Assembly (NCBI RefSeq): GCF_016904955.1
Contig: NZ_JADIKE010000039.1
Span: forward strand, 248,001 to 312,000
Reading direction: 5' to 3'
Length of the DNA: 64,000 nucleotides
Source: Dyella flava
Lineage (GTDB): Bacteria > Pseudomonadota > Gammaproteobacteria > Xanthomonadales > Rhodanobacteraceae
Shown: piece by piece, positions 44,328 to 47,806 of the stretch
Position numbering within the stretch: position 1 is the first letter of the stretch
Layout: every line of letters begins with the position of its first letter
Notes under the pieces: model-generated
Told to the model about the DNA's origin: nothing
The model's database searches: none
What the model saw: the letters and a program-made list of their open reading frames with translations, nothing else
Program-made: the position numbers and the translations under genes

Positions 44328-47039
44328 TCAGTGCTTGGCCGGTGGCGGACCTTGCACCACCTGCATCAGGCTTTGCGGCTTGAGATATTTCTTGAAGGCC
44401 GCCTGCACCTGTTCCGGCGTGAGTTCCAGATAGTGTTTGGCGGCCACCATCGGTTGATCCAGTGGCTCATCGTGCCAGGCCCAGGTCAGCAATGAACGGG
44501 CGATGCTGCTGATGCTGGCGACGCCGACCGGGATCGAGCGGATTTCATACTGACGCGCGTTGGTCAGCTCGTCTTCCTTCACCGGCGTGGTCTGCATGTC
44601 GATCAGGTTCTGGCGCACCAGGCCATCCACCGCCGCCACCTTGTCGGGGTCGCTGCCGTACTGCACGAAGAAGATCGAGCGCGAACGATCGAAGTGCAGG
44701 CCGGAACCGGCGCCATAAGCGTAACCATGCTTTACGCGGATATCGGCCATCAGGCGTGAGGCGAAACCGTTGCCGCCGAGCACGTCATTGCCCAGTTGCA
44801 GGGCATAGCGGTCAGGATCGTGCATGTTGAGCTCGATCATCTGCCCCATCAGCACCTGATCCTGCGAAGCATAGGGATTCTCGATCACGGTGTAGCCGGC
44901 CGGATTGGTCGGCACCGGCTTCGAGATCACATTCGGCCTGGGACCTTCGGCCTTCCATTGACCAAAGTAACGCTCCACCGTGGCCTTGGCTTGATCAGGC
45001 GTGACATTGCCGACGACGACGATGGTGGTCAGATCCGGGCGATAGGTCTTGGCGTAGTAGTCCTTGATGTCCTGCAAGGTGAGTTTGTTGACCGTATCCG
45101 GCGTGGCGAGCCGCAGGTCGGGATCACCCTTCGGCAGCAGGCCCTCCCGCAATGCCTTCATCATCTTGTATTGCGGCGACTGCATTTCGCCGGCCAGGGT
45201 GCGCGACAGCGTTTCCTGTTGCACGCTGAAACCCTGCTGCGGCAAGGCAGGGTGCAGTTCGTTATCGGCCAGCAACTGCACGCCGCGATCGAACTGATCG
45301 CTGAGCACGTCGACGCCGAAGTCGGTGCCGCCACTTTCCGTGGCGGAAATGTCGTCGAGCGCCTTGTGGAAGGCATCGCGATCCAGCGTGGTGGAGCCGT
45401 AGTCGAACAGCGTGGACAGCAGGCGTGCTGCACCTTCCTGTCCAGCCGGCTCGTGCAGTTTCGGATTGTTGTCGATATGGCCGACCACGCTGACGGTCTT
45501 GCTGATGGTTTCCGGCTGCACGATGAGGCGGATGCCGTTCGACAAGGTCATCTGCACGGGAGCCAGCGTCCAGCGCGGAATCTCAAGCTTGCTCAGTTTT
45601 TCGGCAGCCCAGGCTGGCAGCGGCTGATCGAGCTTGTCATTGCCAGCAAAAGATTCCGAACCGCCGAAGCCGGCGCTATCCGGTGGGCGTTGGCCGTTGT
45701 TGTCGGAGGTGAGCACGACGGTCACGCGTTGATCCGGCTTCAGGTATTCGCGTGCGACGCGGTTTACATCGTCCACGGTGACATTGCGAAATTGCTGTTC
45801 GGCTTCATCCGGTGAATTCAATCCCATCCACGCGATGGCTTGCGACCAGGCGCTGGCCAGCGTCACGGCGCTGTTCTTGTTGAATTCGGCTTGCGCGATT
45901 TCCGAACGCTTGGAGGCTTCAACCAGGTCGGCCGGCACGCCGTTCTTGAGCAGATCGTTAATCACACCGTCGAGATCGGTCTGGGCTTGCTTGGCGTCGC
46001 CACCCTTGGGGAAGCCGACCTCGATCAAACCCACGCCGCCGTAGCTGAAAGGCTGCAACTGCGCGTCGGAGCTAAGCACCTTGCCCTGCACAGCCAGTGC
46101 GCTCAACGAGCTGCGTGCGTTGTTGAGCACATCCAGCAGGATCTGCGCAGCGGCATTGTCATTGTCCTTCATGCCGGGCATGCGATACAGGAACTGCACC
46201 GATCCCGTGCCTTGCGGCGTGTTGGCGGCAATCGTTTCCGGCTTCACCGGTTGCAGTTTCAGCGGCGCGCGCTCGGGGGTCTTGCGCTCGGGAATCTTGC
46301 CGAACAAGTCGCGCACCTTGGCGAGCGTGCTGTGCGGATCGACATCGCCCACGATCACCAGCAGCGCGTTGTTCGGCGCGTACCAGTTCTTGTAGAACGC
46401 TTGCAGATCCTGGGCGGTGGTTTTGTCGAATGAAGGACGCGTACCCAGTGCATCTTCCGCATAGCCGGTACCTGCATACAGGATGCGCTCGGCTTTCTGG
46501 AAGGCGAGATAGCCCGGGTCGGAAATATCGCGCGACACCTCCTGCTCGATGGCGCCGCGCTCGCTATCCCAGTTTTTCTGCGTCAGCAGCGCGCCTTCCA
46601 TGCGCGTCGATTCGATGTGCAGCAGAATGTCCAGATAATTGGACGGCGCGACAAAGTAAAACTGCGTGGCATCGTTGGTGGTGAAGGCATTGTTCTCGGC
46701 GCCCATCTTGCCGGTCATTTCATCGAGTTGCGCGCCGCTCATGCCCTGGCTGTCGCGGAACATCATGTGTTCCAGCGCATGCGCGGTGCCGGGAAAACCG
46801 TCCGGCGTGTGATAGCCGCCGGCCAGATAGGTGATCTGGGTGGTGACCATCGGTGAAAGCGTCTCGCGCACGATCACCACGCGCAGGCCGTTGTCCAGGG
46901 TGGCGTGCAACACCTTGCCGTCACCAGCGACGGCCTGCGACGCCGCGGGTGCATCGGCGCGAGCGGGGATGCTGGCGGCGACCAGTCCCAGGCTCAGCAT
47001 TACGCTCCATGCCAATGTCTTGAGGGGTCTCGACATCAT
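44328..47039 (-). CDS. M16-family zinc metallopeptidase (pitrilysin type, two-domain)
   Basis: This 903-residue protein starts at ATG 47039 (AGGA upstream; ATG 47036 is adjacent) with a signal peptide ending near ARA, so it is periplasmic. Two M16 halves are present. The active first half carries the inverted zinc motif HALEHMMF (HxxEH) and the distal Glu region GAIEQEVSR. The second half lacks HxxEH, as usual for these clam-shell peptidases. It probably degrades peptides in the periplasm. The gene is single, ends in a bidirectional terminator and starts about 60 bases from the structured 47099-47390 element, so its promoter may lie in or next to that element. Confidence 0.9.
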   Translation of the reverse strand: MMSRPLKTLAWSVMLSLGLVAASIPARADAPAASQAVAGDGKVLHATLDNGLRVVIVRETLSPMVTTQITYLAGGYHTPDGFPGTAHALEHMMFRDSQGMSGAQLDEMTGKMGAENNAFTTNDATQFYFVAPSNYLDILLHIESTRMEGALLTQKNWDSERGAIEQEVSRDISDPGYLAFQKAERILYAGTGYAEDALGTRPSFDKTTAQDLQAFYKNWYAPNNALLVIVGDVDPHSTLAKVRDLFGKIPERKTPERAPLKLQPVKPETIAANTPQGTGSVQFLYRMPGMKDNDNAAAQILLDVLNNARSSLSALAVQGKVLSSDAQLQPFSYGGVGLIEVGFPKGGDAKQAQTDLDGVINDLLKNGVPADLVEASKRSEIAQAEFNKNSAVTLASAWSQAIAWMGLNSPDEAEQQFRNVTVDDVNRVAREYLKPDQRVTVVLTSDNNGQRPPDSAGFGGSESFAGNDKLDQPLPAWAAEKLSKLEIPRWTLAPVQMTLSNGIRLIVQPETISKTVSVVGHIDNNPKLHEPAGQEGAARLLSTLFDYGSTTLDRDAFHKALDDISATESGGTDFGVDVLSDQFDRGVQLLADNELHPALPQQGFSVQQETLSRTLAGEMQSPQYKMMKALREGLLPKGDPDLRLATPDTVNKLTLQDIKDYYAKTYRPDLTTIVVVGNVTPDQAKATVERYFGQWKAEGPRPNVISKPVPTNPAGYTVIENPYASQDQVLMGQMIELNMHDPDRYALQLGNDVLGGNGFASRLMADIRVKHGYAYGAGSGLHFDRSRSIFFVQYGSDPDKVAAVDGLVRQNLIDMQTTPVKEDELTNARQYEIRSIPVGVASISSIARSLLTWAWHDEPLDQPMVAAKHYLELTPEQVQAAFKKYLKPQSLMQVVQGPPPAKH

Positions 47040-47098
47040 TTCGGATTCCTTAATATGAACAACGGTAGACCGCGGGATAGTGCCATAGTGCCCCGGTA

Positions 47099-47390
47099 AG
47101 GGATGCTCTGATCAATTCTGCGCGGGCGGCATGATGTCCAGAAGGCTCGCAGGCTGTGGCGCGTGGCGCAGGGAAGACTGGCTGTCTTGCCAAGCCGTGC
47201 GGCACAGCCTGCGGGCCTTCTGGACATCACCCCGTCATTTTAAATTCAATACGTTGGGGCCAATCCTGTCTGTTCGCACGCCTCTGGTCCGTCGTCTCGA
47301 CAGACAGCCAGTCTGCCTTCGCCGACGGACCGGAGGCGTGCGAACAGACAGGACTGGTGACGCCCGCGCAGAATTGATCAGAGCATCCCT
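47099..47390. mobile_element. 292-bp element with 30-bp terminal inverted repeats and two internal hairpins (MITE-like)
   Basis: The ends, 47099-47128 and 47361-47390, are perfect 30-bp inverted repeats (left end begins AGGGATGCTCTGATC). Inside, 47133-47157 pairs with 47204-47228 (24 of 25). 47260-47294 pairs with 47323-47357 (33 of 35). The two hairpin tops carry 13-mers at 47175-47187 and 47302-47314 that are exact reverse complements. An AT-rich linker (about 47236-47252) lies between them. There is no plausible ORF and no transposase. Flanking target duplication is unclear (TAA left, TAG right if the repeat is taken as 29 bp). Confidence 0.75.
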
Positions 47391-47482
47391 AGGCCCACGT
47401 GCCGGATTGCCCACTATCGATAACCGGCCGTGGGGGATATCTTGGCTGGACGCCGCAAATTTCTCAGGGGAGGTGCGCGACC

Positions 47483-47806
47483 ATGTTGGTGGTAACGACC
47501 GAAAACGTACCCGGCCATCAGGTGGTCCAGGTCAAGGGGCAGGTGTTTGGCCTGGTAGTGCGCAGCCGCGGCATCGGCGGCAACATGATGGCCGGCATCC
47601 GTTCGCTGGTGGGTGGCGAGATCCACGAATACACCCAGATGCTGGAAGAAGCACGCCGCCATGCGCTCGACCGGCTGGTTTCCAACGCCAAGATGATGGG
47701 TGCCAATGCGGTGCTGATGATGCGTTTCGACTCCGCCGAAATCGGTCAGACCATGAGCGAAATCGTGGCCTACGGCACCGCCGTGGTGCTTGATCCCCCG
47801 ACCTGA
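47483..47806 (+). CDS. YbjQ-like (UPF0145) heavy-metal-binding-domain protein
   Basis: This 107-residue protein starts at ATG 47483 behind a strong AGGGGAGG. The family pattern is clear: TTENVPGHQVVQVKGQVFG, then VRSRGIGGNMMAGIRSLVGG, LEEARRHALDRLVSNAKMMG and ANAVLMMRFDSAEI. YbjQ-type proteins form pentamers and were annotated as putative heavy-metal-binding, but their role is unsettled. A small membrane-protein gene follows after 11 bases, so the two are probably one unit. Confidence 0.88.
   Translation: MLVVTTENVPGHQVVQVKGQVFGLVVRSRGIGGNMMAGIRSLVGGEIHEYTQMLEEARRHALDRLVSNAKMMGANAVLMMRFDSAEIGQTMSEIVAYGTAVVLDPPT

Follow-up and report, generated by a model that had tools for sequence, protein, structure and literature searches.

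Introduction

Bacterial MITEs are usually seen as shortened insertion sequences (IS), and their folds as a mere by-product of the repeats. MITEs derived from IS5-family IS have IS5-type ends, carry no transposase gene inside and are flanked by YTAR, at which elements of the IS5 group usually insert.

Three described systems come closest to the element analyzed here, as the compared parts of their papers present them. The nearest in architecture is CIR of Caulobacter, in which two long inverted-repeat arms are joined by a linker. CIR is intergenic and repeated in the genome, it has a GANTC site at one loop, and no terminal inverted repeats are given in the table of that paper (PMC10969869). The nearest precedent at the RNA level is NEMIS / Correia of Neisseria, a MITE of about 107 or 155 bp with terminal repeats of 24 bp, whose folded RNA was proposed to alter the mRNA of its neighbors via RNase III (PMC2229807). 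The nearest opposed pairs are REP dimers; REPs, palindromes of 20-40 bp tagged with GTAG or CGTC, often occur as opposed pairs (PMC3733652).

The element described below lies in Dyella flava, in a stretch of 64,000 nucleotides of contig NZ_JADIKE010000039.1, which is referred to as the window. An earlier sequence-only reading of the window had drawn attention to it as a structured element and possibly a non-autonomous mobile element. Here, its anatomy, copies and neighborhood were compared across genomes.

Structure and position of the element

The element occupies positions 47099-47390 (292 bp), and all coordinates of the sequence-only reading hold. That reading had described perfect 30-bp terminal repeats and two long hairpins (HP1 and HP2), and both were confirmed by complementarity and folding. 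The complementarity of the terminal repeats extends across 33 nt, of which the outer 30 are perfect. The arms of HP1 (47127-47167 and 47194-47234) are 41 nt long and 85% complementary, and those of HP2 (47260-47294 and 47323-47357) are 35 nt long and 94% complementary. Just as had been claimed, the apical 13-mer of HP1 (47175-47187) is the exact reverse complement of that of HP2 (47302-47314). The element also sits where it had been placed, between divergent genes for an M16 peptidase and a YbjQ-family protein. The features are as follows.

44328-47039, minus strand: M16 peptidase gene (PF00675, PF05193), its start 59 bp from the element
47097-47100, no strand: left flanking tetramer TAAG, a degenerate target duplicate (family consensus YTAR)
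47099-47131, plus strand: left terminal inverted repeat, its core beginning GGATGCTCTGATCAATTCTGCG at 47101, 97% complementary to 47358-47390
47132-47229, plus strand: hairpin 1 (HP1), sense (folded) strand plus, from fold, covariation and G.T bias on the plus strand
47151-47210, plus strand: HP1 apex motif (model R1), made of a stem, an internal loop (47168-47170 / 47192-47193), an upper stem and the loop TGGCT (47179-47183)
47230-47259, plus strand: AT-rich linker, with CCCC/GGGG closing a small middle hairpin, from sequence, fold and helix 4 of the alignment
47260-47357, minus strand: hairpin 2 (HP2), sense (folded) strand minus; A.C on the plus strand is G.T on the minus strand
47282-47335, minus strand: HP2 apex motif (model R2), with the loop TGGCT on the minus strand (47306-47310)
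47358-47390, minus strand: right terminal inverted repeat, 97% complementary to the left one
47389-47392, no strand: right flanking tetramer CTAG, which agrees with the family consensus YTAR
47483-47806, plus strand: YbjQ-family gene (PF01906), its start 92 bp from the element

The plus-strand RNA of 292 nt folds as a single unit at -233.9 kcal/mol, against -114.6 +/- 6.1 kcal/mol for dinucleotide shuffles (z -19.7). The fold is far outside chance expectation, yet it is not unique in the D. flava genome. The element had been said to hold neither an ORF nor a transposase gene. It contains no transposase gene, but a mechanical ORF on the plus strand (47131-47793) does begin inside it. This ORF is not conserved: its ATG is kept in 106 of 106 aligned copies, and the frame stays open through the element end in only 34 of them. 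Another frame is open in 27/106, and on both figures a coding function was rejected. An Rfam scan of 46800-47700 returned nine matches, all of them to microRNA models and below gathering scores. In simple scans of 46900-47600, neither an intrinsic terminator (a hairpin followed by a T run) nor a sigma-70 promoter-like site was found, and both were rejected as nearby features on these scans only.

Copies and relatives without the element

When the D. flava genome was searched with the element, 87 matches at E <= 1 were obtained, palindromic self-matches included. Counting fragments, these correspond to about 26 further places with the ends or hairpins in common, and to some others where only the apex is shared. 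Both ends are present in twelve further copies, ten of which measure 284-380 bp and two 182-194 bp. Beyond this genome, a match was found in 28 of the 100 genomes searched (D. flava included). The genus accounts for 15 of these (out of 16 searched, again including D. flava) and the rest of the host's family for 13 (out of 44), while 40 genomes from other families of the order gave none. There was no match in a plasmid search with the window element, in a phage search with a B-type element (see below) or in a pattern search of viral contigs. For the analyses that follow, elements were taken from the D. flava matches and from the long ones among the matches listed for the 100-genome search. Out of 128 extracted, 114 were distinct and had 20 or more of the 24 terminal pairs, and these were kept. 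All 114 have ends like the left terminal repeat and are called A-type, and the 106 of them that were 260-312 bp long were aligned.

Several forms depart from the full-length element. At L049:449-614 there is a nearly perfect single hairpin of 160 bp, and three loci consist of the terminal repeats only, at 54-57 bp (L285, L286 and G000:C24:27928-27984). Longer D. flava copies (L004, L005, L006) have an extra small hairpin inside HP2, around GTACATGGATGTAC or the like and then GAGGAGCGAGGAAGG.

Relatives without the element were found in the genus. The M16 protein of the host is 83-87% identical to those of Dyella mobilis, D. acidiphila and D. flagellata, and protein neighbors place the host near these three species. 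By-eye comparison found no element at the window spot in any of them (L082, L083, L084), and model R1 gave no match at the corresponding locus. The flanks continue in D. mobilis and D. acidiphila with just a few bases between them; the D. flagellata locus is more diverged, and the exact target bases are unreadable in all three. R1 gave no match over 25 named loci, out of 80 from the protein-neighbor comparison.

Target sites and transposases

Among the 114 elements, YTAR flanks the left end in 54, the right end in 57 and both ends in 38, while the background frequency of YTAR is 0.22%. The tetramers on either side are identical in 30 of 114 (16 CTAG, 14 TTAA). The window copy has a degenerate pair only, TAAG / CTAG. 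The copies, the relatives without the element and the YTAR flanks support the non-autonomous mobile element of the sequence-only reading.

That reading had proposed to look in the same genome for a transposase with matching ends, and there none was found. The only PF01609 gene detected in D. flava (L051) belongs to the IS4 family and has other ends, CAAAGGGGTCAGAACC, which do not match, so that it was rejected as the driver. Pattern searches of D. flava with the element ends gave no pair at IS distance; thus, the driver is either missing there or was not found. It was in sister species (G003, G005) that IS5-family transposase genes with GGATGCTCTGA-type ends and YTAR outside were identified, and the first 11 bases of the left terminal repeat are common to these IS. 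The transposase genes of L164 and L162 were typed (NF033581; PF05598 + PF01609), the frame of the former being broken by TAG, and the derivatives L171 and L178 have TTAG on both sides. Two further observations concern IS. The IS4-family IS, with 34-bp ends CAAAGGGGTCAGAACC..., adjoins an A-type copy (L051 / L015, G000:C34:201100-202870). A small genome of the genus, G003:C1, has 24 near-equal-score matches to one 161-aa PF01609 fragment, which is perhaps a recent IS burst.

The element is short and present in many copies, has terminal inverted repeats and lacks a transposase gene inside. Identical YTAR tetramers mark target duplication, three Dyella species have sites without it, and autonomous IS with the same ends (L164 and L162) exist in sister species. 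It is therefore very probably an IS5-type MITE, moved in trans by IS5-family transposases of IS that end in GGATGCTCTGA and insert at YTAR. Anatomy and comparison carry this assignment, and from them we infer the act of transposition itself. An end fragment of an ordinary IS was rejected as the identity of the element, given multiple copies, both ends and relatives without it. The sequence-only reading had named two other findings that would speak against it, a single copy and freely drifting arms, and neither was observed.

Conservation of the fold

The arms change in sequence while their pairing is kept. Over the 106 copies, at least two Watson-Crick types occur at 26/29 pairs of the terminal repeats, 31/42 of HP1 and 37/42 of HP2. 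In an alignment of 28 copies, with rows hand-chosen from loci that have the element on the locus plus strand, 92.9% of cells are paired and double changes are seen in 77 of 120 pairs. The covariation value of this alignment is 0.337, compared with 0.131 after shuffling, and none of 500 shuffles, which ignore relatedness, reached the observed value. Slid controls are paired at 33-38.5%, although the structure came from the window copy and is thereby favored over the slid versions. The same holds for the tips alone: the HP1 tip is 94.7% paired with double changes in 14/21 pairs, and the HP2 tip 97.4% with 11/15. The representative sets A1 and A2 comprise 39 and 33 chosen sequences, some with odd lengths or loops having been omitted. 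Selection for folding, which had been suggested from the near-perfect arms of the window copy, is supported by these data. As a separate observation, CATGA, the junction at the HP1 base (window 47130-47134), is invariant in the 28 aligned rows, which exceeds the needs of pairing.

Strand polarity of wobble pairs

If a hairpin works as folded RNA or single-stranded DNA (ssDNA), the folded strand is expected to tolerate G.T and to avoid A.C. Over the 106 copies, the ratio of G.T to A.C cells is 62/59 in the terminal repeats, 327/21 in HP1 and 93/180 in HP2, where cells count copies and not independent events. A second count gives 23 A.C cells for HP1, because two junction pairs were counted in it. 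By position, the corresponding numbers are 10 to 12, 26 to 6 and 9 to 26. The pattern is the same in 21 representatives with less than 80% identity, both by cell (terminal repeats 13/13, HP1 66/4, HP2 18/46) and by position (7 to 5, 22 to 2 and 4 to 19). When hairpins were folded singly, the sense strand was richer in G.U in 98/106 copies for HP1 (3 reverse) and in 94/106 for HP2 (5 reverse), and it was 10-15 kcal/mol more stable on average. HP1-type hairpins elsewhere behave alike. Sense-strand G.U excess was seen in 19 of 23 from other families (3 reverse), in 6 of 6 from two other genera and in 15 of 15 non-A hairpins of D. flava, all of these having been chosen for the comparison (the 23 from 24 loci).

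HP1 thus looks selected on the plus strand and HP2 on the minus strand. Two opposed hairpins with like apices are probably held by selection as folded single strands, one per strand; the polarity is counted directly, and the selection behind it is what we infer. Since G.T is tolerated in folded ssDNA as well, the polarity is no proof of RNA.

The apex motif and exchange of ends

Each hairpin tip consists of an asymmetric internal loop, a covarying upper stem of about 5 pairs and a 5-nt loop. The loop is TGGCC or TGGCT in 80 of 98 copies for HP1 and in 79 of 98 for HP2, read on the sense strand. R1 matches the window HP2 on the minus strand at 29.7 bits. The reverse strand of HP1 itself scores 28.3 bits with this model, so it is orientation and motif, rather than the score, that support homology of HP1 and HP2. 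In the D. flava genome, about 33 copies score above 35 bits with R1. In a sample of the order the model is positive in 61 of 299 genomes, 44 of them in the host's family (D. flava included), 14 in family f2 and three in f4 and f5 together. In a sample of the class, R1 is positive in 3 of 369 genomes, D. flava and two weak ones of family f155, and R2 in D. flava alone (1/369). The two f155 loci (L382 in G572, L383 in G667), which lie outside the order, have the same apex on single hairpins with unrelated arms, reading GCAG ... TGGCT or TGGTG ... TCAAG.

The apex hairpins were found with at least three kinds of ends. A ends are GGATGCTCTGA / GGCAACGCTGA, B ends are GGGCCTGTTAGCAC or GGGCCTGYTAACGC, and C ends are AGAGCCTGTTTA. 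PF01609 transposase genes with B-like ends occur in sister genomes (L168, L175, G009), together with one that has a C-like end (L165). In the B-type elements examined, HP1 is kept and the second module is unlike HP2 of A; the lower arms of HP1 diverge strongly from copy to copy with pairing retained. The B family covers L271-L280 and L300-L315 in D. flava and L352-L380 in other genera, and it extends over at least two bacterial families. A B-like copy was also noticed on the Xanthomonas sacchari plasmid NZ_CP010410.1 at about 132400-132620 (L381), between two genes on the same strand; R1 is only weak there (best 14.8 bits), and by eye HP1 seems lost.

Neighboring genes

Gene positions near elements come from a codon model built here and not from curated annotation. 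By these calls, any overlap between a gene and one of the 114 A-type elements is 40 bp at most, and a stop codon lies at the element edge in 36 of these elements. As a yardstick, of the 105 YTAR sites in the window, 5 have a stop at 6 bp or less and 7 have one at 20 bp or less. Gene starts at 30 bp or less are found in 36/69 cases on the HP2 side and in 6/51 on the HP1 side (107 independent loci, p 3e-6), and an alternative rule applied to all 114 gives 36/66 and 7/48. Among tandem pairs with such a close start, HP1 comes first in 22 and HP2 in 5. In B-type elements (41 loci) there is no such bias (10/19 vs 8/21), although these were labeled by their ends, at least two (L323, L329) are really A-type, and some ends were set too far inside, so that distances are overestimated. 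The bias in A is thus not general. It was also noticed that start codons lie 0-10 bp past the HP2-side end in 21/69 (e.g., L062, L204, L213) and rarely past the HP1-side end, despite nearly identical sequences of the two ends.

Proposed function

The two long hairpins retain their fold under changing letters, each on its own strand, and this suggests that the element carries a working RNA (or ssDNA) structure and is not inert debris. The likeliest reading, to which we would give an even chance, is a cis-acting RNA structure in read-through transcripts that serves both directions. A transcript entering from either outside would meet the hairpin of the selected orientation first, which argues for such an RNA, and this arrangement would be the simplest account of opposite polarity within one element. 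Candidate roles in read-through transcripts may include protection of 3' ends, antitermination or help in re-initiation. We tentatively favor a role by which insertions are made tolerable beside stop and start codons, which could be achieved by protecting the 3' end of the upstream mRNA or by lessening polarity on the downstream gene.

A broader idea, likewise speculative, is that the hairpin core could be a transferable, order-wide RNA (or ssDNA) domain that acts as a two-way device, with the apex as a putative site for a host factor. The core would then have been captured by several IS5-type ends since insertions with it become tolerable or useful for the host, and the apex, with its asymmetric internal loop and TGGYN loop, would be what the host factor binds. 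The overall explanation, an IS5-mobilized MITE whose first-transcribed hairpin acts as a cis-acting RNA from either side, could equally well prove right or wrong.

Alternative explanations

HUH/Y1 enzymes recognize the hairpins of REPs or IS200/IS605, and the main rival of the RNA reading is that the hairpins act as ssDNA through strand-specific recognition in replication, uptake or transposition. The polarity fits any folded single strand, and the opposed hairpins do resemble inverted REP dimers as these are presented in the compared text (PMC3733652). However, instead of a tag plus a hairpin the element has IS5-like ends, with YTAR on either side, and its hairpins of about 98 nt stand against the 20-40 bp given there for REPs (PMC3733652). 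We regard recognition as ssDNA as rather unlikely.

Inverted repeats are known to have their arms corrected through replication template switching or gene conversion. The second rival is that quasi-palindromes are merely corrected in this way and that the copies are inert MITEs, which would explain why arms stay near-perfect in the terminal repeats and in both hairpins despite sequence drift. Such correction has no obvious strand preference, yet the wobble polarities of HP1 and HP2 are opposite. Moreover, the families have retained the internal loops and the apex, and persistent internal and apical loops disfavor simple correction of arms; the apex is also found with several different terminal repeats. 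Correction without function appears improbable on these grounds.

Still less probable is strand-biased mutation, in which deamination of cytosines in the transcribed or lagging strand yields a G.T excess without selection. G-C columns do supply 241 of the 319 one-step G.T cells of HP1 (against 14 A.C), but the A-T columns of HP1 are skewed as well (78 vs 7), so that deamination alone is insufficient. In HP2, G-C columns agree with the polarity (22 vs 84) and A-T columns are reversed (63 vs 32), because one pair, 185-234, has 54 T.G cells against the polarity. The terminal repeats of the same copies are unskewed, and HP1 and HP2 are opposite in sign within one element, both of which speak against strand-biased mutation.

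The sequence-only reading had also suggested that the tops pair with each other or that the arms refold, forming a switch, and this was rejected as the least credible option: the 13-mers are exactly complementary in the window copy and in 26/95 copies because HP2 has the apex motif of HP1 on the opposite strand, but the two loops are identical in 32/98 copies against 29.9 expected after partner shuffling, no more than chance, and the derivative L049 has a single hairpin with one apex.

The cargo of this element is conserved in its structure while its letters are free to change, it shows strand polarity, and its apex occurs under different ends throughout the order. Such features are expected of a selected nucleic-acid structure borne by a mobile element. 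The opposed polarity predicts that one strand of each hairpin matters and the other does not. If the RNA reading is true, the element would show how a small transposon survives in operons, beside stop and start codons.

Comparison with known systems

Among the papers listed in searches of open-access literature, nothing describing this element family was found. Like CIR, the element has two arms and a linker, is intergenic and is repeated in the genome. Unlike CIR as described in the compared text, it has 30-bp terminal repeats, YTAR flanks, hairpins of opposed polarity and loops that are mostly TGGCY in place of the GANTC loop, so that arms and linker are shared and the other marks are not (PMC10969869). 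NEMIS / Correia differs from it in host, size and terminal repeats, and an opposed pair of hairpins is not described in the portion of that paper compared (PMC2229807). Measured against REPs and REPINs, its hairpins are about 98 nt long and enclosed by terminal repeats, and the base of HP1 reads GCATGA across the family where the compared text gives a GTAG or CGTC tag (PMC3733652). The combination of terminal repeats, YTAR flanks and opposed hairpins is thus absent from CIR, NEMIS / Correia and REP dimers as the compared text describes them. Unlike ordinary IS5-derived MITEs, this one carries two conserved hairpins as cargo, and its kind of apex occurs under several ends. New here are the heavy covariation of the arms and the opposite strand polarity of their wobble pairs.
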